A DNA stretch of 64,000 nt, taken from Hydrogenimonas sp. GTDB taxonomy: Bacteria; Campylobacterota; Campylobacteria; Campylobacterales; Hydrogenimonadaceae. The notes under the pieces were generated by a model. The model saw only the letters and a list, made by a program, of their open reading frames with translations. It ran no database searches and was not told the DNA's origin. The stretch lies in contig AP019005.1 of the NCBI GenBank assembly GCA_003945285.1, positions 496,001 through 560,000 on the forward strand. The letters are read 5' to 3'. Below are positions 5,581 to 47,255 of this stretch, in pieces (positions within the stretch are counted from its first letter, which is position 1; the number at the start of each line of letters is the position of its first letter). Position numbers and translations under genes: made by a program.

Positions 5581-5622
5581 ATTTTATAGGAAACAAGATA
5601 AAATGTAGTTGATACGAGTCAA
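5581..5622 (-). promoter_or_regulatory. napA promoter with CRP/FNR-type box
   Basis: The palindrome TTGACTCGTATCAA (minus-strand reading) occupies 5609-5622. A TAAAAT -10 hexamer follows at 5586-5581, which puts the box centre near -41.5, as in class II CRP/FNR activation. The remainder of the 377-bp gap between the regulator gene and napA (about 5640-5850) shows no gene or clear structure. Confidence 0.85.
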
Positions 5623-5850: not shown

Positions 5851-6528
5851 TTAGAGGTAGAAAGTCTCTAGCCCTTCCCTGTCCAGAACGAGAATCTCAT
5901 CTTTTCTCTTTTCGATAAGCCCCAATGTGGCCAGTTTTTTCAAAATTCTGGAGAGTGTCTCGGGAGTCATGTTCAAGTCGGCGGCAATATGGCTCTTTTT
6001 GAGCTTTTTCATCTCTTTCTCATGCTCACATATGAATTTTGCGACTCTGGCCGTAGAATTCATCATCAGGTTGGTGGCGATGACGTTCTCCAGGTATTTG
6101 ATCTTTTTAGAGAGTGATTTGATGAAGGCGAAAGAGACTTCGGGATCTTTTAGAAACTCCTTTTCGAAAGCTTCGTAGTCGATCACCAAAGCTTTTCCGT
6201 CGGTTTCGAATTCGGCCGATGCGGGGTAGCGCATATGCTCCAGGTTTACTATCTCAGCAATTACATCCATAGGAAAAAAGTGGTGAAGAATGACTTTGTT
6301 TCCCTTCTGATCGGTTTTGTAGACTTGCAAAACTCCATCTATCAGAACTGTAAGTGATTTTGCCTCATCCCCTTCGAAAAAGAGGATTGCCCCTTTCTTG
6401 TAGTCGACTATTTTCGAAATCTCTTCTAGTCTGGCAAACTTTTCGTCACTTAGGTGTCTGAAGAGGTAGAAATTTCTTAAAGTGTCCATGCTATATCCAA
6501 TGCCGTTTTTTTGCCTTTTGTCAGGCAT
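5851..6528 (-). CDS. CRP/FNR-family transcriptional regulator (NssR-like)
   Basis: This 225-residue regulator has an N-terminal cyclic-nucleotide-binding-like beta barrel (about 25-130), a long dimer helix and a C-terminal helix-turn-helix at about 185-215 (IAADLNMTPETLSRILKKL). It has only one cysteine, so it cannot hold the 4Fe-4S cluster of true FNR. By family analogy (NssR of Campylobacter, Nss proteins of Wolinella, DNR of Pseudomonas) it may sense NO or nitrosative stress; this is inference. It sits upstream of napA and shares an operon with a small membrane protein. An alternative start is the ATG at 6489, which gives a more usual N-terminus (MDTLRNFYLF). Confidence 0.9.
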   Translation of the reverse strand: MPDKRQKNGIGYSMDTLRNFYLFRHLSDEKFARLEEISKIVDYKKGAILFFEGDEAKSLTVLIDGVLQVYKTDQKGNKVILHHFFPMDVIAEIVNLEHMRYPASAEFETDGKALVIDYEAFEKEFLKDPEVSFAFIKSLSKKIKYLENVIATNLMMNSTARVAKFICEHEKEMKKLKKSHIAADLNMTPETLSRILKKLATLGLIEKRKDEILVLDREGLETFYL

Positions 6529-27609: not shown

Positions 27610-27652
27610 TTGATGGATATCAACCAATTTCAAAGATATTTTTGAGTACAAT
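27610..27652 (+). promoter_or_regulatory. Promoter with CRP/FNR-type box ahead of the hemerythrin operon
   Basis: TTGATGGATATCAA is at 27610-27623 and TACAAT at 27647-27652, giving class II spacing within one base. It precedes the 24-residue peptide gene and hemerythrin on the plus strand. Confidence 0.85.
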
Positions 27653-27709
27653 CGCATAAATCAATCCGTACCCGGGGTTTGTGAACCAGGGTACAGTCAG
27701 GAAGAGAAG

Positions 27710-27784
27710 ATGGACTGGATAATGGTCTCGTTTCTGGCATTGACCGCAGTATTGATGGCAAAAATATTTTTTATTTTCAAATAG
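27710..27784 (+). CDS. 24-residue single-helix membrane peptide
   Basis: The ATG at 27710 follows GGAAGAGAAG. The peptide is one hydrophobic helix (DWIMVSFLALTAVLMAKIFF) with a C-terminal Lys, and its stop is 11 bases before the hemerythrin start, overlapping that gene's ribosome-binding region. It is the first reading frame after the promoter at 27610. Small size makes the call uncertain, but position, start signal and pure transmembrane composition support it. Confidence 0.5.
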   Translation: MDWIMVSFLALTAVLMAKIFFIFK

Positions 27785-27795
27785 GAGAGGTTTAT

Positions 27796-28227
27796 ATGCT
27801 TATATCGAACTATATGAGAGATGAGCACCGAAGCTGCGACGAGTCGTTCGCAAAAGCGGAGCAGGCTGCAAGCGGCGGCGATTTCGATGCGGCTTTCAGA
27901 CACTTCGAAGATTTTATGGTCGAAACACTCAGGCACTTCTCCAAAGAGGAGGAGATACTCTTTCCGGCATTCGAAGAGACTACCGGCAATACTGAGGGCC
28001 CGACTATGGTGATGCGCCACGAGCATACCCAGATCAGAGGACTTCTCGAGCAGATGAAAGAGGCTATAGACTCCAAAGACAAGGATAGGTTCTTCTCGGT
28101 GGCAGATACACTGATGATACTTCTTCAGCAGCATAATATGAAAGAGGAGCAGATGCTCTACGCCATGTGCGACAGGCTTATGGGAGAGCGGGCCGAAACT
28201 CTTGTAAACGAGATGAAAGAGCGTTGA
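27796..28227 (+). CDS. Hemerythrin-domain protein
   Basis: This 143-residue all-helical protein has the hemerythrin iron ligands: H11 in MRDEHRSCD, H-x3-E in RHFSKEEEILFPAFEE, H in MVMRHEHTQIRG and H in LLQQHNMKEEQMLY. Such DNR/RIC-like proteins bind O2 or NO at a diiron site and are implicated in NO sensing, storage or repair of iron centres. It is cotranscribed with DUF2249 and an NnrS-like protein under an FNR-type promoter, which supports a role in NO stress. Confidence 0.92.
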   Translation: MLISNYMRDEHRSCDESFAKAEQAASGGDFDAAFRHFEDFMVETLRHFSKEEEILFPAFEETTGNTEGPTMVMRHEHTQIRGLLEQMKEAIDSKDKDRFFSVADTLMILLQQHNMKEEQMLYAMCDRLMGERAETLVNEMKER

Positions 28228-28496
28228 ACGAAATAGGTGTGTTCGAACTGGATGCGCGCGGACTGGCACATCCGGAACCCCTGGAGCGCTCCGTCGAGAT
28301 TTTACGGATGCTCGACTCATCAAGCTGTTTCCATCTCGTGATACACCGTTATCCGCAGCCGCTGCTTATGATCGCCGAGCGCCTGGAGATCGGGTTTGAA
28401 GTCTGCGAAGCCGGTGATAACGAATGGCATATACTCTTTTGCAAAAAAAACGGCCCTGACCCCAAAGAGTTGATGAGGAGGTATTGTGGTGTTTAA
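28224..28496 (+). CDS. DUF2249-domain protein
   Basis: This protein of about 90 residues has the DUF2249 pattern: ELDARGLAHPEPLERSVEIL, then HRYPQPLLMIAERL and a C-terminal WHILFCKK. The fold is SirA/TusA-like. Function is undefined, but these genes often accompany hemerythrin and NO-response genes. The proposed TTG start at 28224 overlaps the hemerythrin stop; a GTG at 28239 is an alternative. It overlaps the next gene. Confidence 0.82.
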   Translation: MNEIGVFELDARGLAHPEPLERSVEILRMLDSSSCFHLVIHRYPQPLLMIAERLEIGFEVCEAGDNEWHILFCKKNGPDPKELMRRYCGV

Positions 28497-29751
28497 CCGT
28501 GGACTCTCTCTGGAACAGGCTCCGCCTATCAGCGTGATAATGCGCTTTTTCCTTACTATACCCCTTTTCGGACTTTTCAGTGCCGGTGCCATTCTCTTTG
28601 CGGATGCAGATATGCTTTTACAGTGGGATACTCCGGGAACTGTGGCAGTAGTACATCTGCTTATGCTTGGTGTTGTAGCCACGGCTATGGTAGGAGCTCT
28701 CTTTCAGATGTTGCCGGTTATAGCCGGGGCCTCAATATCGGAGCCGGAATACCATGCAAGATGGATTCATATTTTGATGACACTGGGTACGGTTCTTTTG
28801 GCTGCGGCTTTCTATTTCAATCTCTATTTTCTGATGCATCCATCCGTTCCGCTTCTTCTCGGGAGCCTCGGATTTGTTTCGTTTATGATGTTCTACAAAC
28901 TTCTCGCCGTAGAGAATAAGACCCCTTCGGTCATAGGGATGATGATATCAATAGCGAGTCTCGGTGTCGGACTCATCTTCGCGCTCATCCTCACTGCCAT
29001 TTTCATGGATATGGATGTCGGGTTGGATCCGCTTCTGCTTCGTGCCATACATCTGCACTTTATGCTGTTCGGTTGGGTAGGGGTACTGGTGATGGCCGTA
29101 GCGTTCCAGGTTATAGAGATGTTCTATGTCACTCCGCCCTATCCGAAAGAGATGAGCGATCTTCTACCTATAGCGGTTTTTGCGCTTCTTTTAGTCTATA
29201 TACTGTTCTCATACCTGATACCTGAGGCGACAGGACTGGTAGATTTTCTTCTTTCGCTGCTCTTCTTCTCGTTCGCTTTCATGACTCTAAGAAGGCTAAA
29301 CCAGCGCAAACGGCCGGTCGTGGACGCTACTGTATGGCTATGGCGTATAGGGATGGTCTCCCTTGCCGCATCGTCGGTAACCGCAGTTCTGTCGCTCTTT
29401 ATCTATAGCGATCTGTTCCTTTCGGTATCGGCTCTTCTTTTCGGCTACTTCGTATTGAGTGTAATATATGCTATGAGCTACAAGATCGTACCTTTTCTGG
29501 TCTGGTTCCATCTCAACGCAAAAGGTGTGCCGGAGTGCCCGATGATGGGTGACATTATCCCGGCAAAAAGGGCAATGTGGCACCTGCGGCTGCATCTGGC
29601 ACTTCTTGCCGGCGGAGTTCTGCTTCTGGCTACACCATATGCCTGGAAGTTTATCGGTGTGGCGCTTGCTGCCGAGTCACTGCTCTACGGTTTCAACCTG
29701 CTGGGAGCAGTTCGAATCTACAGATCACTAAAAGATAAAGGAGTCCTATGA
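28486..29751 (+). CDS. Twelve-helix NnrS/heme-copper-like membrane protein, paralogue 1
   Basis: This 421-residue protein is polytopic with about 12 helices and has conserved intramembrane His residues (VVHLLMLGVVATAMVGALFQ; IHLHFMLFGWVG) and the block KIVPFLVWFH followed by GDIIPAKRA. The same block and spacing occur in the protein at 31416 (KIVPFLVWFE, DMIPKKRA). The arrangement resembles heme-binding NnrS or oxidase subunit I relatives, but lacks the full ligand set of an oxidase. A role in NO response is inferred from context. GTG start with GAGGAGG upstream. Confidence 0.8.
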   Translation: MVFNRGLSLEQAPPISVIMRFFLTIPLFGLFSAGAILFADADMLLQWDTPGTVAVVHLLMLGVVATAMVGALFQMLPVIAGASISEPEYHARWIHILMTLGTVLLAAAFYFNLYFLMHPSVPLLLGSLGFVSFMMFYKLLAVENKTPSVIGMMISIASLGVGLIFALILTAIFMDMDVGLDPLLLRAIHLHFMLFGWVGVLVMAVAFQVIEMFYVTPPYPKEMSDLLPIAVFALLLVYILFSYLIPEATGLVDFLLSLLFFSFAFMTLRRLNQRKRPVVDATVWLWRIGMVSLAASSVTAVLSLFIYSDLFLSVSALLFGYFVLSVIYAMSYKIVPFLVWFHLNAKGVPECPMMGDIIPAKRAMWHLRLHLALLAGGVLLLATPYAWKFIGVALAAESLLYGFNLLGAVRIYRSLKDKGVL

Positions 29752-30350
29752 GATACCCCGCTTTTTTCGACGAAGTCGAAACGATAGATATGTACGACCC
29801 GCTGGCCGAGACACTCGGTGCCGCAGAGGAGGGCAGATTTACATACAGCTATATAGATATGGTGAAGCTTGCGGGACACTCCTGTCCCACGGTTGCCGGA
29901 GCATGGATAATGGCATCTGTCGGCCTGAAGAGACTCTATAAAGAGTCTCTTCCGGTAAGAGGAGATATAAGGGTCCAGATGCGCGGTGCGCTCGATGAGG
30001 GAGTGGAAGGGGTGATAGGAAGCTGCATAGGCTTTATCACCGGGGCCGCGAACGAGGGCGGTTTCAAGGGGCTCGGCGGAAGAATGGCCAGAAACAACCG
30101 GCTATTCTACGGTGTCGAGATGGAGGGAGAGGTGAGGCTCACCCGTCTCGATAACGGCGAGAGCGTCGAACTCTCCTACAACCCTTCGATAGTCCCCGGA
30201 AATCCGGAGCAGCAGATACTGATGCAGAAGGTTCTCGGCGGCGTGGCCACCGAAGAGGAGAAGAGGCGGTTCGGTGAACTGTGGCAGGAGAGGGTGAAGA
30301 GGATACTCCTGCAAAAAGAGTTGTGGGAGAAGATGGTTACGGTTTTCTGA
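29748..30350 (+). CDS. FmdE-like protein
   Basis: This 200-residue protein has the FmdE-domain motif GHSCPTVAGAW (about 44-54), with Cys and His suited to metal binding. FmdE was named for formylmethanofuran dehydrogenase operons, but in bacteria without that pathway its role is unknown. It overlaps the upstream NnrS-like gene by four bases, so it belongs to the hemerythrin operon. It is convergent with the DUF1858 gene, 14 bases between coding ends or less. Confidence 0.8.
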   Translation: MRYPAFFDEVETIDMYDPLAETLGAAEEGRFTYSYIDMVKLAGHSCPTVAGAWIMASVGLKRLYKESLPVRGDIRVQMRGALDEGVEGVIGSCIGFITGAANEGGFKGLGGRMARNNRLFYGVEMEGEVRLTRLDNGESVELSYNPSIVPGNPEQQILMQKVLGGVATEEEKRRFGELWQERVKRILLQKELWEKMVTVF

Positions 30351-30849
30351 TATAGGTCAGATATAGACCCTCTTCCGCCTCGGCTGCATATACTTCGTAG
30401 CCCTGCTCCCTGAAAGTATCTATGAGCGGTGAGGGCAGAAAGTCGCTCTTTATGACGACGATATCGCCGCTTTCGATCTTTTTTAGAACTTTGCTCACTT
30501 CGGAGAGGGGGTTTTTCTCCTCATCCAGAAGCTTGTTGGCATCTATCGTCTGTACCGGGGTCCCTTCGATCCAGGAGGGGGTCTCTTCGGTCTGCTCATC
30601 TTTTTCGACGCCGCTCTCTTCGAGCGGAGGCTGGCCCACCTCTTTTCTCAATATGTTCACAAGGTCCACAGTTTTATAACCGCCGATTTTTGCCACCTGT
30701 GTAAGAGTGGCTATTTTGGCTACGGTACGCCTTAGAATAGGGTTTTTCAGTTTTTTGTATTTCGGATTGAGTCCGATCAGGAACTCTTCGAGCTGCGGAT
30801 ACTCTTTCAGCAGGTCATCTATCTTTGTTTTCGCCGTTATCTGAAGCAT
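30337..30849 (-). CDS. DUF1858-DUF2249 fusion protein
   Basis: This protein of about 170 residues has an N-terminal DUF1858 domain (ScdA/RIC N-terminal type, about 1-65: KIDDLLKEYPQLEEFLIGLNP) and a C-terminal DUF2249-like domain (about 95-168: QTIDANKL, GDIVVIKSDFLPSPLIDTF, LTYIRKP). DUF1858 is the partner domain of di-iron repair proteins. The ATG at 30849 follows AAGGAGAG and is preferred over a GTG two codons upstream. It is the last gene of the minus-strand operon. Confidence 0.82.
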   Translation of the reverse strand: MLQITAKTKIDDLLKEYPQLEEFLIGLNPKYKKLKNPILRRTVAKIATLTQVAKIGGYKTVDLVNILRKEVGQPPLEESGVEKDEQTEETPSWIEGTPVQTIDANKLLDEEKNPLSEVSKVLKKIESGDIVVIKSDFLPSPLIDTFREQGYEVYAAEAEEGLYLTYIRKP

Positions 30850-31105
30850 CTTCACTCTCCTTTTTATTATTGCACGATTCCGTACCGCAGTAGCTCTTTT
30901 TCAGAATGAGCAGGAGATAGAGATCTTTGAATACAAGGGCCAGCGACCATATCCAGAGAATATCGAGTGCTAGATTGTGCGGGTAGTCCAGCCCGTAATA
31001 TAGAGCCGGCAGCCCCAGAAGGATGGGCCACTTGGCATAGTAGAAAAAGAGAATACCCGCGCCGTAGATGTGGCGAAGCTCCCGAATCCACTCCTCTTTG
31101 CCCAC
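30815..31105 (-). CDS. Small membrane protein in the DUF59 operon
   Basis: The protein is about 96 residues from a GTG start two bases after the DUF59 gene stop. It has two hydrophobic segments (about 15-40 and 45-68) and a hydrophilic tail with two Cys (CGTESC). The 3' end overlaps the DUF1858 gene. No family recognised. The position suggests it works with the neighbouring membrane protein. Confidence 0.65.
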   Translation of the reverse strand: MGKEEWIRELRHIYGAGILFFYYAKWPILLGLPALYYGLDYPHNLALDILWIWSLALVFKDLYLLLILKKSYCGTESCNNKKESEDASDNGENKDR

Positions 31106-31107
31106 TA

Positions 31108-31419
31108 TCAGGCGCCGCCCAGCGCTTTTTTGACATGCTCTTCGGCCATCGATATATTCCACTCCGGTTCCCAGACAATCTCGACTTCGACTTCGCCGAC
31201 GCCGGGAATTTCCTTTACCGCATCCTTGACCCACTGCATGAGCAGTTGATGAAGAGGGCAGCCGCGGGTAGATAGCGTCATGACCACCTTGACATTGTTT
31301 TCATCATCTATTATCGCATCGTAGATAAGCCCCATCTCGACAAGATTGAACCCGACCTCAGGGTCTATAACTTTGCGTATTGCATCGAAAACCTGCTCTT
31401 TTGTTATCTTTTCACTCAT
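31108..31419 (-). CDS. DUF59/MIP18-family Fe-S assembly protein (SufT-like)
   Basis: This 103-residue protein matches the DUF59 family: VFDAIRKVIDPEVGFNLVEMGLIYDA and TLSTRGCPLHQLL with the conserved Cys, then VEVEIVWEPEWN. These proteins help mature iron-sulfur proteins. Overlap with the stop of the NnrS-like gene (ATGA) and the FNR-type promoter suggest repair or assembly of Fe-S clusters damaged by NO. Confidence 0.88.
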   Translation of the reverse strand: MSEKITKEQVFDAIRKVIDPEVGFNLVEMGLIYDAIIDDENNVKVVMTLSTRGCPLHQLLMQWVKDAVKEIPGVGEVEVEIVWEPEWNISMAEEHVKKALGGA

Positions 31420-32672
31420 TTTCCCTCCGAGTTGTCACTTTTTCCGAAATTAATCATCCATCTAACGCTGATAAACATGAATACCGCACCTACAGCCATG
31501 AAAGCGGCTCCGCCCCTGAATATCTCATCGCTTCCGATCAACAGTCCGAGACCTCCCATGATCACCCCGGCGGTAGAGAACCAGAACTGGAAATCGGCTC
31601 TCTTTTTCGGGATCATATCCGCCAGCATCGGAACCTTCTCTTTGCCCACGAGCGGACTGTAGCGCTCGAACCATACCAAAAACGGAACGATCTTGAAGAG
31701 ATGGCCGTTTATAAGGAATGCGAAAAAGCCCATCACCAGAAACCATGCCGATGCAAGGGCAAGACTCTCCAGCCTGCCTATCAGCGCGAACGGGGCCAGC
31801 AGCAGGGCGAAGGCGAGAGAGCCGTAGCCGACTACCATCGATCTGAACCATATATCGCTCTCTCTTCTTGCACGTGTTTTGTAGATGAGCCATATCTGCC
31901 ACAGGTAGAGCCCGGTCGCTATGAAGATGGCCACCATCGATAGAAATCTTATCGAGTCGGAGTCGAAAAGAGCGCCTATGAAGTATGCGAACACGCCGCA
32001 GCTCATTATCTTGAAGGATCTGTTTACAGGGGTTTCGTCGAATCCGTGGGAGAGCCCGAACATGGGTAGAAGCACCATGCTCATACCTATGATCGTCATG
32101 GTGACGTAGCCACCAAGAACGAGAACTATGTGTGCACCGAGCCACTTCTCTATGTCGACACCGACGCCGGCGCCTATGGCTAGTGCCATCGCGAAGCCTA
32201 CAAGAATGCCGAGAAGCAGGAAAGCGTTCGTAACACCGACCGTTTTGACCGTAAGCGAGACGTGTTCTACTTTACGCAGGGTCAGAATCGTATCCGCAAG
32301 GAATATCAGCATCGCCGTAAGCACCATTAGCCCGCCGTAAGGCAGAATACCGGGCAGAAATGCGAAGCCTGTCGCCATAAGAAGGGTCCCGGCCGCAAGA
32401 AGGGGCCATATCAGGTAGTAGAAGTCTACGCTGAAGTGTCCGACCTCAAGGACGACCGGCACAAGCTGTGCCATCGCCCCGAAGATAATCATCATAACGA
32501 AACCGAGCAGAAAGAGGTGTGCCCAAGCCACTACGCCCATATCGTAGCTACTTGAATCTACTCCTAACATAGGAAGCAGCAGCATAGCCGCCAGGTAGAA
32601 GAGTGATCCGGCTACGAAGAAGGGCGATATCAGCGAAAAGGGAGGGGCAAACTCCCTGGAGACCTGAAACAT
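31416..32672 (-). CDS. Twelve-helix NnrS/heme-copper-like membrane protein, paralogue 2
   Basis: This 418-residue polytopic protein has His motifs at similar places to the paralogue at 28486 (AWAHLFLLGFVMMIIFGAMAQ; GAHIVLVLGGYV) and the shared KIVPFLVWF and DMIPKKRA blocks. The two are clearly related but diverged and sit in convergent operons. Heme binding is probable, catalysis unproven. It follows the DUF2249-like gene by 20 bases. Confidence 0.8.
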   Translation of the reverse strand: MFQVSREFAPPFSLISPFFVAGSLFYLAAMLLLPMLGVDSSSYDMGVVAWAHLFLLGFVMMIIFGAMAQLVPVVLEVGHFSVDFYYLIWPLLAAGTLLMATGFAFLPGILPYGGLMVLTAMLIFLADTILTLRKVEHVSLTVKTVGVTNAFLLLGILVGFAMALAIGAGVGVDIEKWLGAHIVLVLGGYVTMTIIGMSMVLLPMFGLSHGFDETPVNRSFKIMSCGVFAYFIGALFDSDSIRFLSMVAIFIATGLYLWQIWLIYKTRARRESDIWFRSMVVGYGSLAFALLLAPFALIGRLESLALASAWFLVMGFFAFLINGHLFKIVPFLVWFERYSPLVGKEKVPMLADMIPKKRADFQFWFSTAGVIMGGLGLLIGSDEIFRGGAAFMAVGAVFMFISVRWMINFGKSDNSEGK

Positions 32673-32692
32673 CTACATTCTCTCTTTCAGGC

Positions 32693-33040
32693 TCAGCCGT
32701 GACAGGCTGTGTCGCCAAGGTTCGCTTTTTCTGATGCCCCCTCTTTGTAGCTGAAGGTTAGCTTGACATTTCCGTTTTCGAGATTTTCTACATCTATGTC
32801 GTAGTTCTGACCGATCTTGTCGAGCAATCCCATAGGTTTTTTATGGTTTATCATAACCAGCTTTTTATCCGGTCCGTCGATGAGTTTCAGCCCGCTCATG
32901 GCATTTACCATCGGTTCCGGGGGGCCGCATCTTGAAGTGTCGAACTGATAGTATGTTACTCCATCTTTGGTATATTTGTAGAAGTCCACGGTAGCACCGG
33001 GAACTTCGATTTTTTCTGCATCTGACGGTAAAAGTTCCAT
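32693..33040 (-). CDS. DUF2249-like small soluble protein
   Basis: This 115-residue protein begins behind AAAAAAGGGGAG. It has DTSRCGPPEPMVNAMSGLKLI and a central KLVMINHKKPMGLLDKIG, which fit the SirA/DUF2249 fold (a conserved CxxP-like site and strand-helix order), and a C-terminal Cys. It is the first gene behind the FNR-type promoter at 33118. The domain call is moderate; the reading frame itself is secure. Confidence 0.75.
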   Translation of the reverse strand: MELLPSDAEKIEVPGATVDFYKYTKDGVTYYQFDTSRCGPPEPMVNAMSGLKLIDGPDKKLVMINHKKPMGLLDKIGQNYDIDVENLENGNVKLTFSYKEGASEKANLGDTACHG

Positions 33041-33089
33041 GTTTCTCCCCTTTTTTCCCGGAGATTTCTCCGGTTTTTGTGTTTCGGCA

Positions 33090-33131
33090 ATTATATGCCA
33101 ATTCGCTTACATTTAGTTTGATATGAGTCAA
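33090..33131 (-). promoter_or_regulatory. Promoter with CRP/FNR-type box for the minus-strand accessory operon
   Basis: The box, read on the plus strand as TTGATATGAGTCAA, is at 33118-33131. A perfect TATAAT (minus strand) lies at 33095-33090, exactly class II spacing. Confidence 0.88.
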
Positions 33132-33185: not shown

Positions 33186-35093
33186 TCATTTGCCGCCTAT
33201 AGAAGCCAGTGCCTTCGTGATCTCCGTAAAGACTTCATAACGGTTTCTTGACGGGGCGATCATCTTCATTACGATATCTCCGGTCTCTTTTTCCAGATCC
33301 GGATTGAGCTTGCAGATGTGGCGTGCCGGAGTCGTCTCTACCGGGTTGAACTGGTGGATACCCTGGTAGGCGTTCTGTCCGGTCAGAGATCTATATATTT
33401 CGAGGCCCAGCAGGAATATCTCGTTGTACTCCGGAACTCTCTGCCACCTGGGGTCGAAGGAGAGCTTTTTGTATCCGTTCGGCCTGCAGATCTCCACGTT
33501 CCAGCGAAGAGTGAACTCGATTGCACCCTTGGAGTAGTTCCTTAGCACGCGGCTCTCGAATCTCTCGAAGCTCTCTTTCGGTCTGCGTAGTGAAGAGTAG
33601 GCTTCCGCCAGTTCGGCAACGTAGTATTTCGCTACACTCAGCGGTACGCTCTTCATCACGGTATAGGCCTCCTCCTGCGATGCGGTCGACTTTCCGCCTA
33701 TCTGTATATGAACACCGTAGACCGTTTCGCCCCTCTCTTTCGCTTTGCAGCCGACAAAACCGATATCTCCCAGTTCATGGACTCCGCACCCCTTTACACA
33801 GGCTGACCAGTGCATACGTATCGAGGCGTCTGCCGGCAGCGGTACGGTTTCGCCCAGGTAGTCGGCCATCTCTACGGCGTCCGATTTGTTGGGTATGACC
33901 CCGAACGGGCAGAGGTCGATTCCGGCGCACGCTACCACCTGGTTGAAGTAGGGCGTGCTTATGCAGTGGTAGCGGTCATACGGCTTTTTTGTCAGAGCTT
34001 CCGGTATCTTCTCCTCGGGTACTCCCAGAATGTAGAGGTTCTGTGTCGTTGATATGTTCACTTTCCCGTTTCCGAATTCTGAGGCGAGTCCGGCCGCTTC
34101 GATCATCGCCGTTCCGGAGAAGACTCCTGACGGTACGACCATGTGAAGCGCGAACGTTCCGTCCCTGAGGCGTATGCGTCCCTCTCTCTCGTCCGTTCTC
34201 GGCTGCTTTACCATCGTCTCGCCCGCCTCTTCGAAGTTGCGCCCGGCAATCTCCTTTACGGCATCGGTGACGGCTCTCATTCCGGCCTCTTTAATCAGGA
34301 AGTGGAGCCTGTTTTTGTTGCGGCTGTCCCTGAAACCGAAACGGCGGTATGTTTTCATAAGCGCTTCGTAGAAGTCGAGAAGCTCGTCGGTCCGCAGGAA
34401 GATATCCGCCGACTCGGCTACGGCTCCCACTTTGCCGCCGAGGTATACGTTGAAGCCGTACTCCCCCTCCTTCATAGCCAGTGCGAAGCAGCAGTCGTGC
34501 GCGAAGAGGTTGCACCTGTTGGTCATCGTCCCGCTTATTGAGGTATTGAACTTTCTCGGCAGTGCCGATACCCACTCATCCTTTTTGAGCCACAGCTCCT
34601 GCATGGCCGCCGTAAGGGGGGCGGTCTCTATCACGGAGTCGAAGGCGAGCCCGTCGAGCGGGTCCGAGACTATGTTCCTGAAGTTGTCCGCACCCGTCTG
34701 CCAGCTTGTTATGCCGACACTTTCGAGCTCTTTTATGATATATGGTATATTCTCTATCTCCAGGTAACGCAGCTGCACCTGCATACGGGTGGTCAGATCC
34801 ATATAGTCTCTGCCGTACTCTTTCGCCATGCGCCCCAGAACCTCCGCCTGCTCTTTGTCGAGCCGTCCGCCGGGTATGCGTACTCTCATCATGAACTTTC
34901 CCGGAGTAGCAGGTCTGTCGAATATTCCGAAACATTTGAGAAAGTAGTCGATATCCTCTTTGCTGATCGAATCATACCCATCGACGGAGTATCTCTGCAG
35001 AGCTTCCCACGCATCTTTATAGGTACGAGTCTGCTTCAGTTTCTCTATCTTGTTCAGTTTCGTGTGTCTTGCTGCAACGGCTTCAAGCGTCAT
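33186..35093 (-). CDS. Siroheme-dependent nitrite/sulfite reductase, probably assimilatory nitrite reductase
   Basis: This 635-residue protein has the two-repeat fold of ferredoxin-dependent nitrite and sulfite reductases. The 4Fe-4S/siroheme ligand Cys motif is ACVKGCGVHELGDIGFVG; other conserved blocks are MMRVRIPGG and DLTTRMQVQLR. A C-terminal extension of about 100 residues exceeds the usual 500-560. It lies divergent from a nitrate/nitrite transporter and near a cytoplasmic nitrate reductase, so ammonium production for assimilation is the likely role. Sulfite reductase is the alternative. Confidence 0.88.
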   Translation of the reverse strand: MTLEAVAARHTKLNKIEKLKQTRTYKDAWEALQRYSVDGYDSISKEDIDYFLKCFGIFDRPATPGKFMMRVRIPGGRLDKEQAEVLGRMAKEYGRDYMDLTTRMQVQLRYLEIENIPYIIKELESVGITSWQTGADNFRNIVSDPLDGLAFDSVIETAPLTAAMQELWLKKDEWVSALPRKFNTSISGTMTNRCNLFAHDCCFALAMKEGEYGFNVYLGGKVGAVAESADIFLRTDELLDFYEALMKTYRRFGFRDSRNKNRLHFLIKEAGMRAVTDAVKEIAGRNFEEAGETMVKQPRTDEREGRIRLRDGTFALHMVVPSGVFSGTAMIEAAGLASEFGNGKVNISTTQNLYILGVPEEKIPEALTKKPYDRYHCISTPYFNQVVACAGIDLCPFGVIPNKSDAVEMADYLGETVPLPADASIRMHWSACVKGCGVHELGDIGFVGCKAKERGETVYGVHIQIGGKSTASQEEAYTVMKSVPLSVAKYYVAELAEAYSSLRRPKESFERFESRVLRNYSKGAIEFTLRWNVEICRPNGYKKLSFDPRWQRVPEYNEIFLLGLEIYRSLTGQNAYQGIHQFNPVETTPARHICKLNPDLEKETGDIVMKMIAPSRNRYEVFTEITKALASIGGK

Positions 35094-39602: not shown

Positions 39603-40202
39603 ATGGATTTCAAGACTTCGGTGGAACTTCTTAAATTTCACTGGATGGCCTATACGATCTATTCGCTACTGATCATATCGGTCATAGCATGGTTCGGCTA
39701 CAACCTGAGCCGAAAAGAGAGAGTAAAGTCATTGGTACGTATTCCCTTTTACGGCTATATAGCGTTTCTCGTAGCCGGCGGCGTGGGGCATCATATCTTT
39801 ACCTACAACACCATTCCGTGGGTCGCTGAAGATATTATGCGTCATGAGATCAAGCCCGACCACGAGTTTCATATCATGATAGAGAAGCACAAGTGGACAC
39901 TGCCGCAGGAGAAGATGGTGGTGCGCAAAGGCGAGAAGGTTATGTTCAACGTAGGAAGCAAAGATCTGACATACGGCTTCGGCCTTTTCAGGAAGGATGG
40001 AAGTATGGTTACGCAGATGCAGGTTCTGCCCAACTGGAACAACGATCTTCTCTGGACGTTTCACGAGTGCGGCTCTTTCGACCTGACATCTACGGAGTAT
40101 TCCGGGCCTCACCAGTATGATGAGCATACGGGGGAAGATCTTATGCTGGTCAAAGATGCGGTCGAAGTTATCGGCTGTGACGAGAAACTGGCAAGCAAGT
40201 AG
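39603..40202 (+). CDS. Cupredoxin-like subunit II of an unusual heme-copper enzyme, CuA site missing
   Basis: This 199-residue protein has two N-terminal transmembrane helices (about 14-34 and 46-66) and a cupredoxin domain. Where oxidases have CxxxCGxxHxxM for CuA, it reads HECGSFDLTSTEYSGPHQY, without the second Cys or Met. It therefore cannot bind CuA in the normal way and may accept electrons from quinol or a heme. Subunits of this kind occur in recently described NO reductase families. It is directly upstream of subunit I, with FNR-type control. Confidence 0.85.
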   Translation: MDFKTSVELLKFHWMAYTIYSLLIISVIAWFGYNLSRKERVKSLVRIPFYGYIAFLVAGGVGHHIFTYNTIPWVAEDIMRHEIKPDHEFHIMIEKHKWTLPQEKMVVRKGEKVMFNVGSKDLTYGFGLFRKDGSMVTQMQVLPNWNNDLLWTFHECGSFDLTSTEYSGPHQYDEHTGEDLMLVKDAVEVIGCDEKLASK

Positions 40203-40216
40203 CAGGAGGAGAGAAA

Positions 40217-41890
40217 ATGAGTTTTATAAAGACACTTGTAAACGGGACAGATTTCGACCATACGAAACTCAATGCCCTTCAGAAGGTTACGCTTCGGGCG
40301 GTGGTCATGTCGTTTCTATTCTACGGTCTGGTTGCCGTAGAGGGGATGATTATGAGGATGGTGCAGACAGGCCCTTCCGCTCCCATCCCGAAGATGTTCT
40401 TTGAACCCGATCACTACTTTTCGATAATGACGGTACACCCGATCGTAGGTATCTTCGGGTCTACATATCAGCTGGTATTTGCGGCTTTCATGTTCCTGGT
40501 TCCATACCTGACCAAAAAGCCGCTCTACAGTGTGAAGCTTGCAAATGCCGTATGGCTTCTCATAACCATCGGTACGGCGATGGCGTGGATAGCCGGCTTC
40601 ATCTGGCAGTATGCGCCGCTATATACGCTCTACTGGCCCCTTCCGGCAGATACTGAGCAGTTCAAGATAGTCGGCGGATTCGTCTTCGTCATAGGTGTGG
40701 CCCTAATAATGATCGGTACGATGGGCTTCATCTACAACATATACGCCACAATCTTCGCAAGAGTGGGTGTTCACAAAAACAAGACGACAAAAGAGCTCCT
40801 GATATCCGGTTTCGGTATAGACGGGCTTATGAACCTGATTCACAAGCTGACCGGAAAGCCTCCCTACAGCAAGGAGCCGGCCCTTTCGCTTCCGGTAGTC
40901 GCGATATTTCGCGGTACGGTCGATACATTCCTCGACGCTATAGTCATCCTGAGCGCCGGTATACTGGTTCTGGTATATCTGATAGCCGAGTCGACCGGTT
41001 TTACATGGGACGTACACGCTGTAGATGCGCTGCTTTACAAAAACTGGTTCTGGTGGGGTCTCGACCTCGTCGCAGACGGTCTGGTTCTTATATATGTGGC
41101 GGGTTCGTGGTATCTTCTGGCCACCATCATAACCGGTCAGAAACTCTTCATGGAAAACGTGGCTCGGGCCGCGCTGCTGCTGGAGCTCTTCGTATCGTGG
41201 ATGGTCTGGAGCCACCACCTCCTTGCAGATCAGCCCCAGCCGGAGATGATGAAACTGGTTTCGGGAGAGATGGTTACGGCGTTCGAGCTTCTGACACAGG
41301 GGCTGGCTCTCTTCATAACACTGGTTACGCTCTGGAAGGCGAGACCTCTTAAAATGACTCCTCCGTTGGCCTATCTTCTCGGCGGACTGGTAGGGTTCGG
41401 GCTTGCGGTTCCGGCCGGAATCATCCAGGCAGACATGGGTCTTAACCGTGTGCTTCACAACACGCAGTGGATAAGCTTCGCGCACTTCCATATAGCGTTG
41501 ATCGTGGGTCTGTACATGACACTCTACAGCGCCCTTTACGTTCTCTGGCCGCTCGTGACGAACAACACGACGCTCTTTTCCAAGAAGCTGACCTGGGCCC
41601 ACTTCTGGCTCTATCTGATAGGCGGTATAGGTATGGGCGCGCTCGGCGGTATGGCCGGACTCGACGGTATGCTAAGGCGCCACCTCTATGTCGACGGCGA
41701 GTTCAACACATTGATGGTCGGTGCGGCTATATTCGGGTCGATGGTGCTGATAGCATGGGTGATCTTCCTCTTCAATATCGTGATGAGTGTAGGACTCAAA
41801 GGGCTGGTCGGCATATTCATGCCCGCCAAAGATCCTACGGCCAGCTACGGTATCGAGCCTGAACCTGAGCCTGCGACTGTAAAGGCGTAA
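40217..41890 (+). CDS. Heme-copper subunit I with altered active site, probable NO reductase (gNOR/sNOR-like)
   Basis: This 557-residue protein has about 14 helices. A low-spin heme His is in TVHPIVG (H74), paired active-site His in VWSHHLLADQ (H334, H335) and H415, H424, H426 in HNTQWISFAHFHIAL. The oxidase helix VI motif HPEVY is absent; this stretch reads WWGLDLVADG, with Asp283 and Asp287. Loss of the CuB His and the cross-linked Tyr argues against O2 reduction. Families such as gNOR and sNOR show such changes, so NO reduction is the best inference. Confidence 0.78.
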   Translation: MSFIKTLVNGTDFDHTKLNALQKVTLRAVVMSFLFYGLVAVEGMIMRMVQTGPSAPIPKMFFEPDHYFSIMTVHPIVGIFGSTYQLVFAAFMFLVPYLTKKPLYSVKLANAVWLLITIGTAMAWIAGFIWQYAPLYTLYWPLPADTEQFKIVGGFVFVIGVALIMIGTMGFIYNIYATIFARVGVHKNKTTKELLISGFGIDGLMNLIHKLTGKPPYSKEPALSLPVVAIFRGTVDTFLDAIVILSAGILVLVYLIAESTGFTWDVHAVDALLYKNWFWWGLDLVADGLVLIYVAGSWYLLATIITGQKLFMENVARAALLLELFVSWMVWSHHLLADQPQPEMMKLVSGEMVTAFELLTQGLALFITLVTLWKARPLKMTPPLAYLLGGLVGFGLAVPAGIIQADMGLNRVLHNTQWISFAHFHIALIVGLYMTLYSALYVLWPLVTNNTTLFSKKLTWAHFWLYLIGGIGMGALGGMAGLDGMLRRHLYVDGEFNTLMVGAAIFGSMVLIAWVIFLFNIVMSVGLKGLVGIFMPAKDPTASYGIEPEPEPATVKA

Positions 41891-43332: not shown

Positions 43333-44931
43333 ATGAGCGAAGCCTCGAGCGCGATAGAGAGCTTTTTGAACCACAAAGCCGATACCGGAATGCAGTGCGG
43401 CAACTACACTATCGACATTCCCGAGCTCAAACCGGGAGAGCAGTACCGTTTCCATTTCGATATGACCGCATGTGTCGGGTGCCACTGCTGCGAAGTGGCT
43501 TGCAACGAGCAGAACAACAATCCGGCCGAGATCAAATGGCGCCGTGTCGGGGAGATGGAGAAGGGGACTTTCCCGGATGTGCTTCAGCTCTTCAACTCGA
43601 TGAGCTGCAACCACTGCATCGACCCCGCGTGTCTGAACGGGTGCCCTACGAACAGCTACATAAAGCTCGATAACGGTGTTGTCTACCATGTGGACGAAGA
43701 TTGCATAGGGTGTCAGTACTGCACATGGAACTGCCCCTACGAAGTGCCGGTATTTCACAAGGAGCGCGGTATCGTCACGAAGTGCCACATGTGCGTAGAC
43801 AAACTGGAGGCGAAACAGACTCCGGCATGTGTGCAGGCGTGCCCGGCCGGGGCCATCTCGATAGAGGCGGTGAACAAGGATGAGTGGATAGAAAATACCA
43901 TGCACAAAGAGGGTGTCGCGCCGCACCTGCCGGATGTGGAGATAACGAAACCGACTACCAGATACACGCTTCCGGAAGGACTCGAAGCTGATGAGGCCGT
44001 GCGGCCGGCGGACGAGCATATACTCGAGCCGGCACATCCCGAGTTTCCGCTGGTTTTCATGACGGTTCTTACACAGATGAGTGTGGGAGGCTTCACGGCT
44101 CTATTCTTCGGAGAGCTCCTGCACTTTATGGGGCTCGATCTTCCGGCGCCGAATGTGTGGATGGTTCTGGCCGTTCTTCTTCCGGCCGCCGTCGGGCTTC
44201 CCCTTTCGGCTCTTCATCTGGGGCGCCCCGCTCTTGCGATAACCGCCATGAAGAACCTCAAAACCTCATGGCTCAGCCGCGAAGCGGCCGCTTTAGGGGC
44301 CTATGCCGGGGGTGTGACTCTGCTTCTGGGGCTATACCTTCTCGATCTTCCGGAGTCTGTAAAGCTGCTGGTAGAGATACCCGTGGCGGCTCTCGGCATC
44401 TACGGCATCTACGCCCAGTCGATGATATACCGCGTTCCGGCGCGTCCGGCGTGGAACCGCCGCTCCACGACTCTGCGCTTCATGGGGAGCGGCTATCTGG
44501 GCTTTCTGCTGGTTGCGCTGATTCTCTCTCTTACTGGTGAGGCGGGGAGCGTACTCGCCCTCCTGGCTCCTACGCTCATGCTGGGGCTCTACCAGATGCA
44601 CCTGATCTACGAAGAGATGATCTTTTACAGGTACCTCGACGAAGATCACCCCCTCTACTACCAGCTGAGCCGCACCAAGACGCTTCTGGAGGAGCGTTTC
44701 GGAGAGCTCAAGAGAGTCAGGCTCTACACCCTGGCGCTATTTGCCATAGCGCTGCCGATGGTCAGTACGGTCTTCGCGGCCGCGAAGATGGAGACGGCGG
44801 CTGCACTGCTGCTTGGTTTGGCTTTTGCCGGGGCCACGGCGAGTGAGCTTCTCGGACGCTACCTCTTTTACAGAACGGTAGTTCCGCTGGGCCTTGCGGG
44901 CAACTTCTTCGCCGGCAACCAGCGCCACTGA
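43333..44931 (+). CDS. Fused four-cluster ferredoxin and NrfD/DmsC-type membrane anchor
   Basis: This 532-residue protein joins two subunits. Residues about 30-210 are a DmsB/NrfC-like ferredoxin with four 4Fe-4S groups (CVGCHCCEVAC, CNHCIDPACLNGCP, CIGCQYCTWNCP, CHMCVDKLEAKQTPACVQACP). Residues about 235-530 form eight or so helices of DmsC type. It has no export signal, so the ferredoxin faces the cytoplasm. It should oxidise quinol and pass electrons to the molybdoenzyme encoded 14 bases downstream. Confidence 0.9.
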   Translation: MSEASSAIESFLNHKADTGMQCGNYTIDIPELKPGEQYRFHFDMTACVGCHCCEVACNEQNNNPAEIKWRRVGEMEKGTFPDVLQLFNSMSCNHCIDPACLNGCPTNSYIKLDNGVVYHVDEDCIGCQYCTWNCPYEVPVFHKERGIVTKCHMCVDKLEAKQTPACVQACPAGAISIEAVNKDEWIENTMHKEGVAPHLPDVEITKPTTRYTLPEGLEADEAVRPADEHILEPAHPEFPLVFMTVLTQMSVGGFTALFFGELLHFMGLDLPAPNVWMVLAVLLPAAVGLPLSALHLGRPALAITAMKNLKTSWLSREAAALGAYAGGVTLLLGLYLLDLPESVKLLVEIPVAALGIYGIYAQSMIYRVPARPAWNRRSTTLRFMGSGYLGFLLVALILSLTGEAGSVLALLAPTLMLGLYQMHLIYEEMIFYRYLDEDHPLYYQLSRTKTLLEERFGELKRVRLYTLALFAIALPMVSTVFAAAKMETAAALLLGLAFAGATASELLGRYLFYRTVVPLGLAGNFFAGNQRH

Positions 44932-44945
44932 GAGAGGGAGAAGAG

Positions 44946-47255
44946 ATGATAAAAAAGATAAAAGATCTACTGGGACTCGATATAAAAGAGGATAAGTACG
45001 CGCTCGTCGACGACCCCTTCTTCGGCAAGGTAGCGAAAGAGAGGGCGCCGGAGAGGTGGGTGCGCTCGACATGCGGCTACTGCGGGGTGGGCTGCGGCCT
45101 CTACATAGGTGTAAAGAACGGCGACCCGGTCTATGTCAAGGGCGATCCCGACCATCCGGTAAACCGCGGTACACTCTGTCCCAAGGGGCTGAGCGAACAT
45201 GAGATGGTAAGGGCTCCCACCCGTCTGCCCGGGGCGATGGTGAGAGATGGCGAGGGCTTCAGGCAGGTAGAGTGGAGCGAAGCGTTCGGGAGGGTGAGCG
45301 AAAAGTTCAAGTCTATTCAGAAGGAGCACGGAAAGAGGGCAGTCGCGGTCATCTCGACCGGCCAGCTTCTGACGGAAGAGTTCTATACACTCGGAAAGTT
45401 CGTGCAGCTCGGGCTCGAGACCAACAACTACGACGGCAACACGACCCTCTGTATGGCGAGTGCGGTCATGGGCTACAAGCAGAGTTTCGGCAGCGACGGC
45501 CCTCCCGGCTGCTACGAAGATTTCAGCCATGCCGAAGTTATAATGCTGATAGGCGCCAACATCGCCGACAACCACCCGATTTTGAAGCTCCACATAGCCA
45601 GAAACAGGCAGATAAGGGGTAAAAAACCCACGATAATAGTGGTCGACCCGCGCCACTCCAAAACCGCCAACATGGCCGACATCTATCTGCCGATAAAACC
45701 GAGAACCGATCTTGCCCTGATCAACGGTCTTTGCTACATAATCTGGGAGCAGGGGTGGATGGACGAGAAGTTCATAAAGGAGCGAACGGAGGGATACAGG
45801 GAGTTTTTGAAGGAGATTCAGAAGTATCCGCCGCAGGAGGTGGCGCACATAACCGGTATAGATGTGAAGACGCTGTACAGGGTGGCAGGGCTCTATGCCG
45901 GAGCCGACGCCGCGATGAGCGCATGGACGATGGGTGTAAACCAGAGCGCGATGGGTACGGATACCGTAAGTGCCATAGTCAACCTCGCCCTCATGACCGG
46001 GAACCTCGGAAAACCGGGCGGGTCGCCCATGAGCATAACGGGCCAGTGCAACGCGATGGGAACCAGGGAGAGCGGATTTACGAGCTCCATACCCGGTTAC
46101 AGAAATTTCGCCAGCGCCGAAGATAGGGCGGAGTATGCCAGGATAGTCGGGGTGCCCGAAGAGCTTGTGCCCGATTCACGCGGCTACGCATATCCGCAGA
46201 TCATAGAGGCTATAGAGAGGGGCGAGATAAAGGCGCTTTGGGTGGTCGCCACCAACCCGCTAGTCAGCTATCCAGACCAGCCGAGGCTCAGAAGAGCTCT
46301 CGAGAAGCTCGATATTCTTGTGGTGCAGGACAGCTTCATGAGTGATACCGCAAAGGTTGCCGACGTACTCTTCGGTGCCGCTACATGGAGCGAAAAGAGT
46401 GGAACCTACACCAACTCCGAGAGGCGTTGCAACCTCGCAAAGAAGTCTGTACCCAACTACATGGACTCCAAGAGCGATTTCGATATAGTGGTGGAGTTTT
46501 CGAAATATTTCGACGGAAAGTACGAGCTTCTCTTCGACGGCTGGAGCGGCCCGGAGGATGCGTTCGAAGAGTGGAAGAGAGTCAGCCGCGGCAGGCTCTG
46601 CGACTACAGCGGGATGAGCTACGAAAAGATAGAGCGTCTCGGCGGCATACAGTGGCCCTGTAACGAAGAGCACCCGGAAGGTACGCCGCGCCTCTACTAC
46701 GAGGGGATGCCGACAAGAAACGAAGGTGGAAAACCGAAGTTTGTCTTCAGCGAGTGGCGCCCGATGGAGGAGGATATCTGCACATCTTTCCCGCTCATTC
46801 TAAATACCGGAAGAACGGTTGAGCAGTTTCATACCAGAACCAAGACCGGAACCATAAAGATACTGGAAGACCTGGCGCCCGAAGCGTGGGTGGAGCTGAG
46901 CCCCAAAGATGCACGAAAGCTTCAGGTGAAGTCCGGCGACAGAATAGCGCTGAGCTCTCCTAGGGGAAGGGTGGAAAACGTCATAGTCAGGGTCACAGAA
47001 GCGGTAAGAGAGGGGAGTGTATTTGTCCCGTTCCACTTCAATACCCAGCTTGTCAACACCCTCACGCAGTCGCTGTTCGATCCCAAATCGTTCGAGCCGA
47101 ACTACAAGCAGACGGCTATACAGCTGCATAGTCAAAAGGCGCCGGAGGGGATAGTTCTCGAAGAGGAGGAGATAGCCGGAGCTCTCGGGTACGAGAAGAG
47201 TACGACAGAGAAGCCGATGCAAAGAGTTGCCGGGCACGAGGGTGTTTCAAAGTGA
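44946..47255 (+). CDS. Cytoplasmic molybdopterin nitrate reductase (NasA/NarB-like)
   Basis: This 769-residue Mo-bisMGD protein lacks a Tat signal. It has 4Fe-4S motif CGYCGVGCGLYIG (about 41-53) and the Mo-ligand Cys in TTLCMASAVMGY. Other blocks fit the NasA/NarB/NapA group (MGVNQSAMGTDTVSAI, TGQCNAMGTRE). It probably reduces nitrate for assimilation with electrons from the fused ferredoxin-anchor upstream, in place of ferredoxin or NADH. Other oxyanion substrates cannot be excluded. Formate dehydrogenase is less likely since the motif lacks the usual selenocysteine/His pair. Confidence 0.85.
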   Translation: MIKKIKDLLGLDIKEDKYALVDDPFFGKVAKERAPERWVRSTCGYCGVGCGLYIGVKNGDPVYVKGDPDHPVNRGTLCPKGLSEHEMVRAPTRLPGAMVRDGEGFRQVEWSEAFGRVSEKFKSIQKEHGKRAVAVISTGQLLTEEFYTLGKFVQLGLETNNYDGNTTLCMASAVMGYKQSFGSDGPPGCYEDFSHAEVIMLIGANIADNHPILKLHIARNRQIRGKKPTIIVVDPRHSKTANMADIYLPIKPRTDLALINGLCYIIWEQGWMDEKFIKERTEGYREFLKEIQKYPPQEVAHITGIDVKTLYRVAGLYAGADAAMSAWTMGVNQSAMGTDTVSAIVNLALMTGNLGKPGGSPMSITGQCNAMGTRESGFTSSIPGYRNFASAEDRAEYARIVGVPEELVPDSRGYAYPQIIEAIERGEIKALWVVATNPLVSYPDQPRLRRALEKLDILVVQDSFMSDTAKVADVLFGAATWSEKSGTYTNSERRCNLAKKSVPNYMDSKSDFDIVVEFSKYFDGKYELLFDGWSGPEDAFEEWKRVSRGRLCDYSGMSYEKIERLGGIQWPCNEEHPEGTPRLYYEGMPTRNEGGKPKFVFSEWRPMEEDICTSFPLILNTGRTVEQFHTRTKTGTIKILEDLAPEAWVELSPKDARKLQVKSGDRIALSSPRGRVENVIVRVTEAVREGSVFVPFHFNTQLVNTLTQSLFDPKSFEPNYKQTAIQLHSQKAPEGIVLEEEEIAGALGYEKSTTEKPMQRVAGHEGVSK

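Follow-up and report, generated by a model that had tools for sequence, protein, structure and literature searches.

The 64,000-nucleotide (nt) stretch of a Hydrogenimonas sp. genome analysed here (contig AP019005.1, positions 496,001 to 560,000; hereafter the window) contains two convergent operons, one on the + strand (27610-30350) and the other on the - strand (33131-30337), and the span they cover (27610-33131) is bounded exactly by two FNR-type sites, one at each end (Table 1). Genes within each operon overlap or nearly abut. The + operon successively encodes a single-helix peptide of 24 amino acids (aa), a hemerythrin, a DUF2249 protein, a membrane protein that we call MemA, and an FmdE-like protein, while the - operon encodes a divergent DUF2249 protein, a second membrane protein (MemB), a DUF59 protein, a small membrane protein and a DUF1858-DUF2249 fusion. 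An earlier note on this DNA had the coordinates and gene content of the two convergent operons right, as Pfam recognizes the hemerythrin, DUF2249, FmdE, DUF1858 and DUF59 families; it overlooked the 24-aa peptide and the small two-helix protein. The window as a whole is a denitrification region, with napA-like and norC/norB-like genes (read from translations) and genes for a cytochrome d1 domain protein (nirS type), a heme d1 siroheme decarboxylase and a radical SAM protein. We tentatively propose that the two operons are parallel modules for handling nitric oxide (NO), each built around a homolog of heme-copper oxidases (HCOs).

Table 1. Promoter elements and genes of the two convergent operons (positions in the window).
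Feature	Position	Strand	Evidence or remark
FNR-type palindrome TTGATGGATATCAA, + operon promoter	27610..27623	+	perfect TTGATN4ATCAA match; kept in the genus
-10 element TACAAT, + operon	27647..27652	+	23 nt past the site; class II layout within 1 nt
24-aa single-helix peptide MDWIMVSFLALTAVLMAKIFFIFK	27710..27784	+	first reading frame of the + operon
Hemerythrin HHE protein	27796..28227	+	PF01814, 4e-23
DUF2249 protein, TTG start, overlapping both neighbours	28224..28496	+	PF10006, 2e-11 (43.8 bits; cut-off 29.5)
MemA, 12-helix HCO homolog	28486..29751	+	model, PDB matches
FmdE-like protein, GHSCPT motif	29748..30350	+	PF02663, 6.5e-7
DUF1858-DUF2249 fusion	30337..30855	-	PF08984, 5e-15
Small membrane protein, two likely helices	30815..31105	-	without known family (Pfam, NCBIfam)
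DUF59 / SUF-associated Fe-S protein, CPLH motif	31108..31419	-	PF01883, 5e-19
MemB, 12-helix HCO homolog	31416..32672	-	model, PDB matches, profiles
Divergent DUF2249 protein, C38 (CGPPEP), C-terminal C113	32693..33040	-	weak PF10006 match, orthologs
-10 element TATAAT, - operon	33090..33095	-	exactly 22 nt past the site
FNR-type palindrome TTGACTCATATCAA, - operon promoter	33118..33131	-	site scan, upstream regions of relatives

MemA and MemB are related, as the earlier note had recognized: they are 27% identical across 387 aa (E 3e-14), have the blocks KIVPFLVWF and IP-[AK]-KRA in common, and both predicted models contain 12 long helices. Neither matched any Pfam or NCBIfam family. The MemB model (predicted local distance difference test score, pLDDT, 94.3) has as its best PDB match the cbb3 oxidase subunit CcoN, over its full length (TM-score 0.73, probability 1.00), and 50 of the 50 matches listed are HCOs or NO reductases (NORs). 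The MemA model (pLDDT 85) has its best PDB matches among HCO subunits I, with TM-scores of 0.55-0.65 in significant matches. Profile searches point in the same direction for MemB, with CcoN found in the PDB at 2e-8 and a COX1 match in 28 of 74 MemB relatives (best 1e-15). MemB consists of three homologous 4-helix units that match each other at 85-94% in hhalign and unit 3 of CcoN at 95, 82 and 66%; it thus has the organization of three units most like HCO transmembrane helices (TM) 9-12. For both MemA and MemB, the predicted fold is that of HCO subunit I. One alignment hinted at a heme site circularly permuted relative to CcoN; this idea found no support in unit-by-unit hhalign comparison, in which CcoN unit 3 was the best match of each MemB unit.

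The conserved histidines set the two proteins apart from catalytic members of the superfamily. Two of them are universally invariant, H52 (TM2) and H181 (TM6) in MemB, corresponding to H57 and H189 in MemA, and this invariance spans Campylobacterota, Thermus, rhizobia and haloarchaea. Another histidine of MemB, H324 (TM10), is present in the Campylobacterota group and is replaced by a methionine in MemA, within which M330 and H342 are invariant. Oxidases also have a TM7 histidine pair and a TM10 H-x-H; MemA and MemB lack both, whereas a CcoN control keeps all six histidines. The catalytic metal site (CuB/FeB ligands) is thus missing, and neither protein has the six histidines of a catalytic HCO or NOR. 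The two shared histidines may instead bind one heme b. As for the origin of the pair, MemA and MemB fall into two separate, well-supported groups in the tree, which rules out a local duplication and led us to reject a recent one inside the window. The Cupriavidus protein groups with MemA and Bacteroidota/Ignavibacteria proteins are sister to MemB, several long branches being uncertain.

The two operons also share their promoter type. As claimed in the earlier note, each is preceded by a class II FNR-type promoter: the site-to-(-10) spacing of 22 or 23 nt in the window corresponds to the class II CRP/FNR layout, with a predicted centre at about -41.5. Taken by itself, the motif TTGATN4ATCAA is only modestly non-random in the window, where six occurrences with at most one mismatch are observed against 2.3 expected; at two mismatches its count is uninformative (27 seen, 30 expected). 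Relatives provide stronger support. Among the 91 regions upstream of the MemB operon (module B; the MemA operon being module A), 49 contain a perfect site and 29 more a site with one mismatch; mononucleotide shuffles give 0.2 and 2.4, respectively, although related upstream sequences are not independent. In 63 of 89 site-bearing upstream regions, the start of a TATAAT-like hexamer lies exactly 22 nt past the site. The class II CRP/FNR promoter of the two operons recurs across Campylobacterota. Four further sites of the same type (TTGATN4GTCAA) lie in the window at 5609, 6759, 7300 and 21012, namely upstream of napA, near nor/nir genes and ahead of the gene for the siroheme decarboxylase, and one regulon probably covers the denitrification cluster of the window too. 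A Crp/Fnr-family gene at 5851-6528 is a candidate regulator.

Gene order is well conserved in each module. The order DUF2249-MemB-DUF59 is preserved in full at 99 of 106 loci, almost all of them from Campylobacterota, while in the hemerythrin-(DUF2249)-MemA arrangement hemerythrin is present in 29 of 29 loci and DUF2249 too in 25. FmdE joins either module in relatives, and in several loci of other lineages it is convergent to module B. Modules A and B are adjacent and convergent solely in the genus of the window (3 of 4 genomes, the fourth being without MemB); since the operons are usually apart outside this genus, they represent two modules rather than one locus. Thermus, rhizobia and Bacteroidota/Ignavibacteria likewise have MemB operons. 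In Thermus, the order is narGHJI-NarK-DUF2249-DUF1858/2249-hypothetical-protoglobin-MemB-DUF59, and we take the two DUF2249 proteins of this island to be DrpA and DrpB. Similarly, Sinorhizobium, Rhizobium and a Roseateles-labelled plasmid carry norQD-hemN-DUF2249-MemB-DUF2249-DUF59-nnrS-nirK. Finally, Cupriavidus plasmid pHG1 carries hemerythrin-MemA-Crp/Fnr gene beside NnrS, narK and nosZ genes.

Both modules accompany denitrification enzymes. Among 249 Campylobacteria genomes (membership read by hand, cross-matches given to the better-scoring family), MemA is found in 46 and MemB in 94. MemA is present in 32 of 37 genomes with cNOR (odds ratio 90, p 3e-24) and MemB in 66 of 75 genomes with the nitrous oxide (N2O) reductase NosZ (odds ratio 38, p 9e-28); counted by genus, these associations have p-values of 2e-5 and 3e-6, respectively. 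NapA was discarded as a discriminating marker, as it occurs in 213 of the 249 genomes. The window further carries a two-gene HCO operon (39603-41890, +), the second gene of which matches PF00115 at 3.5e-50. We take this COX1-family protein to be epsilonproteobacterial gNOR-like; operons of this type occur in 27 of the 249 genomes, 24 with MemA and 25 with MemB. The claim in the earlier note of a coherent set thus stands for gene order, promoter architecture and co-occurrence with NOR and NosZ, but not for a single locus. That note had also held that scattering of the genes in relatives would tell against it; the operons are indeed usually separate outside the genus, yet both co-occur with denitrification.

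The soluble and small proteins of the two operons differ in their conservation. The peptide MDWIMVSFLALTAVLMAKIFFIFK, which recalls the small subunits of oxidases (CydX or CcoM, for example), is kept in each of the four genomes of the genus and was found in none of the other 25 MemA loci. The putative di-iron ligands of the hemerythrin (H11, H47, E51, H77, H113 and E117/E118) are invariant across 29 orthologs. We rejected its assignment as a YtfE/RIC Fe-S repair protein, as it scores 39 bits against a cut-off of 254 for the equivalog model, in a partial match of the di-iron region, and only the HHE domain is in common. The GHSCPT motif of the FmdE-like protein is nearly invariant (37 orthologs). 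In the DUF59 protein, which matches TIGR02945 at 7e-28 (under the cut-off of that model), C54 and H57 are invariant (99 orthologs). The C-terminus of the DUF1858 fusion gives sub-threshold DUF2249 and TusA matches (8e-5 and 5e-4), and a search with the profile of this protein retrieves the DUF1858-DUF2249-DUF2249 protein of Thermus at 100 bits. The small membrane protein is kept in 12 loci, mostly adjoining DUF59 or DUF1858. The presence of a DUF2249 protein in each operon, as proposed earlier, is clear for the + operon; the - strand protein alone matches PF10006 weakly (0.008, below the cut-off) but is backed by 11 of 17 orthologs, the best at 3e-5. It has no significant relative in the PDB.

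Several neighbouring or related genes were noticed. In the window, a siroheme nitrite/sulfite reductase-like gene (33186-35093, -) lies upstream of the - operon and points away from a NarK-like transporter gene; few relatives have it next to module B. Further on (43333-47255, +), a fused Fe-S/DmsC anchor protein is followed by a molybdoenzyme intermediate in sequence between NasC and formate dehydrogenase. Loci of Bacteroidota/Ignavibacteria encode, after DUF59, a protein of 150-180 aa homologous to a single 4-helix unit (L175:2577-3110, L194:8197-8649, L198:8677-9129, L209:8539-8991 and L236:8435-8887), which is probably a single-unit oxidase homolog adjoining the three-unit one. The MemB of locus L229, on a contig labelled Candidatus Methylomirabilis, falls within the Campylobacterota MemB group, which may reflect a binning error or gene transfer. 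Finally, in many Sulfurovum-like loci (L191, L195, L199, L201, L205, L206, L211, L233, L234 and L238), module B is preceded at a distance of several kb by a gene of about 1.1 kb that distantly matches NrdG (radical SAM type) and might encode a heme d1 enzyme or a peptide-modifying one.

The role that the earlier note read from the sequences, namely to sense or bind NO or to repair its damage, would fit both operons, which probably help the cell to cope with the NO made by denitrification. The reading we favour, with a probability of about 0.45, is that they are two parallel heme-based NO-handling modules, formed around HCO homologs without a catalytic site and co-regulated with denitrification. 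An FNR/DNR-type regulator would turn on both operons along with nap, nir and nor. In MemA and MemB, the two histidines would hold one heme b, and NO would be bound, or quinol electrons relayed, without turnover. The cytoplasmic DUF2249 partner, with its TusA-like fold, would carry or read out what the membrane protein has caught, while the hemerythrin and the DUF59 and DUF1858-DUF2249 proteins would maintain di-iron and Fe-S sites under nitrosative stress. There might be feedback on the expression of nitrate respiration, as for DrpAB in Thermus. Module A would then belong to the NO-reductase branch, and module B to the wider one of nitrate and N2O. A broader version is possible but doubtful, namely a widespread and so far undescribed accessory system of nitrogen-oxide respiration in which two ancient paralogs of the oxidase core, without the catalytic metal site and paired each with a DUF2249 protein, share the work and act as membrane heme receptors for NO, MemA (with hemerythrin) accompanying NO reductase and MemB (with DUF59) accompanying N2O/nitrate respiration.

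Several points weigh against the NO-handling reading. For MemA and MemB, we know of no record of heme, of NO binding or of a mutant phenotype. The genome-level p-values given above are inflated by relatedness. Moreover, neither NOR tested is present in 59 of the 94 MemB genomes and 12 of the 46 MemA genomes, so that NO there would have to stem from nitrate ammonification or from outside. Lastly, the DrpAB data were taken by their authors as evidence of nitrate sensing, not of NO sensing (PMC6282519).

Other explanations bear on what the membrane proteins are and on what the modules do. MemA and MemB could be catalytic, as novel NORs or quinol-oxidising respiratory enzymes, which the HCO fold and the operon-linked single-helix peptide of the genus would suit; this is very unlikely given the histidine pattern described above and the presence of a real NOR in most MemA genomes (34 of 46). 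That they are ordinary NnrS proteins overlooked by Pfam is scarcely credible and largely refuted. NnrS resembles them in profile-profile comparison over one 4-helix unit (86%, E 5e-6), but PF05940 matches neither MemA nor MemB at E 0.1 and none of 74 relatives at E 10, two true NnrS genes lie elsewhere in the genome (PF05940 at 4e-56 and 1e-55), and the conserved histidines of NnrS (H58, H311 and H333) form another pattern. The label "NnrS-like" of the earlier note is thus wrong as a statement of family membership; NnrS and MemA/MemB are distant cousins inside the HCO superfamily.

In view of the Thermus DrpAB phenotype, both maturation and regulation have to be taken seriously as rivals: the deletion abolishes nitrate control and leaves nitrate reductase activity low despite wild-type-like subunit amounts (PMC6282519). 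Under maturation, which we consider rather unlikely, the modules would build or load the metal centres (heme, Fe-S, copper) of NOR, NosZ and nitrate reductase, MemA and MemB acting as a membrane scaffold or heme donor, DUF59 as an Fe-S carrier and DUF2249 as a chaperone. DUF59 and DUF2249 (TusA-like) are cofactor-trafficking folds, the low activity of mutants that do make the subunits speaks for maturation, and MemA tracks cNOR as MemB tracks NosZ; yet two NOR genomes (G008 and G186) lack both MemA and MemB, 28 MemB genomes lack NosZ, and 12 genomes contain MemA but none of the NORs tested. Alternatively, the DUF2249 and DUF1858-DUF2249 proteins and the membrane protein could form a regulatory complex that senses nitrate, nitrite or NO and tunes the FNR-type regulator, detoxification being secondary. 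The same phenotype, the DrpB homolog in the - operon, the Crp/Fnr gene adjoining MemA in Cupriavidus and the protoglobin gene adjoining MemB in Thermus all point this way; however, the full DUF1858 protein is missing from most Campylobacterota module-B loci, and the minimal core is DUF2249-MemB-DUF59, in which DUF59 is not a signalling domain. We judge this explanation unlikely.

The link of DUF2249 and oxidase homologs with denitrification has precedents. HCO homology (HCOH) proteins, NnrS included, were reportedly described by Pei et al. in 2014 (Protein Sci 23:1220) with a denitrification gene context. They reportedly have, as MemB does, 12 helices, three homologous 4-helix units most like the last HCO unit and two conserved histidines; the operon structure, the promoter and the co-occurrence with NOR and NosZ are added here, and no Pfam or NCBIfam family covers MemA and MemB. 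NnrS is likewise a multi-helix membrane protein of denitrification regulons with distant homology over one unit, but it forms a separate family with other conserved histidines and coexists with MemA and MemB in the same genome. CcoN and the cNOR subunit NorB are alike in fold, but their CuB/FeB ligands and TM10 histidine pair are missing in MemA and MemB.

We found no literature description of these operons as a unit, in a search largely beyond the reach of which lay the subscription journals, nor any paper in a search on the S. meliloti locus tags of the module. The statement in the earlier note that no description was known is thus nearly right for the whole set, while parts of it have been described. 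COG4309/DUF2249 is co-transcribed with norB and predicted to be relevant to NO reductase (Rodionov 2005, PMC1274295); that study tied DUF2249 to NO reductase genes and NO-responsive regulators, without a membrane partner or Campylobacterota operons. In addition, DUF2249 is induced in haloarchaeal denitrification (PMC11218638), and a Bradyrhizobium DUF1858 gene is strongly NnrR-dependent (PMC6710368).

Denitrifiers produce toxic NO and N2O, and the set described here is compact, conserved and dark to annotation from Campylobacterota to Thermus and rhizobia. Should it act in NO reception or protection, the function of DUF2249 would be explained, DrpAB would gain a partner and the HCO fold would be used beyond catalysis. 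A close precedent is the nar island of Thermus thermophilus, in which DrpA (DUF2249) and DrpB (DUF1858-DUF2249-DUF2249) were studied alone and proposed to sense nitrate (PMC6282519). There too, an island for nitrate respiration encodes DUF2249 and DUF1858-DUF2249 proteins, and MemB-DUF59 follows a few genes later; unlike in Hydrogenimonas, DrpB has two DUF2249 domains and there is no convergent hemerythrin/MemA operon. The last gene of the - operon encodes a short relative of DrpB, with DUF1858 and one DUF2249-like domain, again in a denitrification region.

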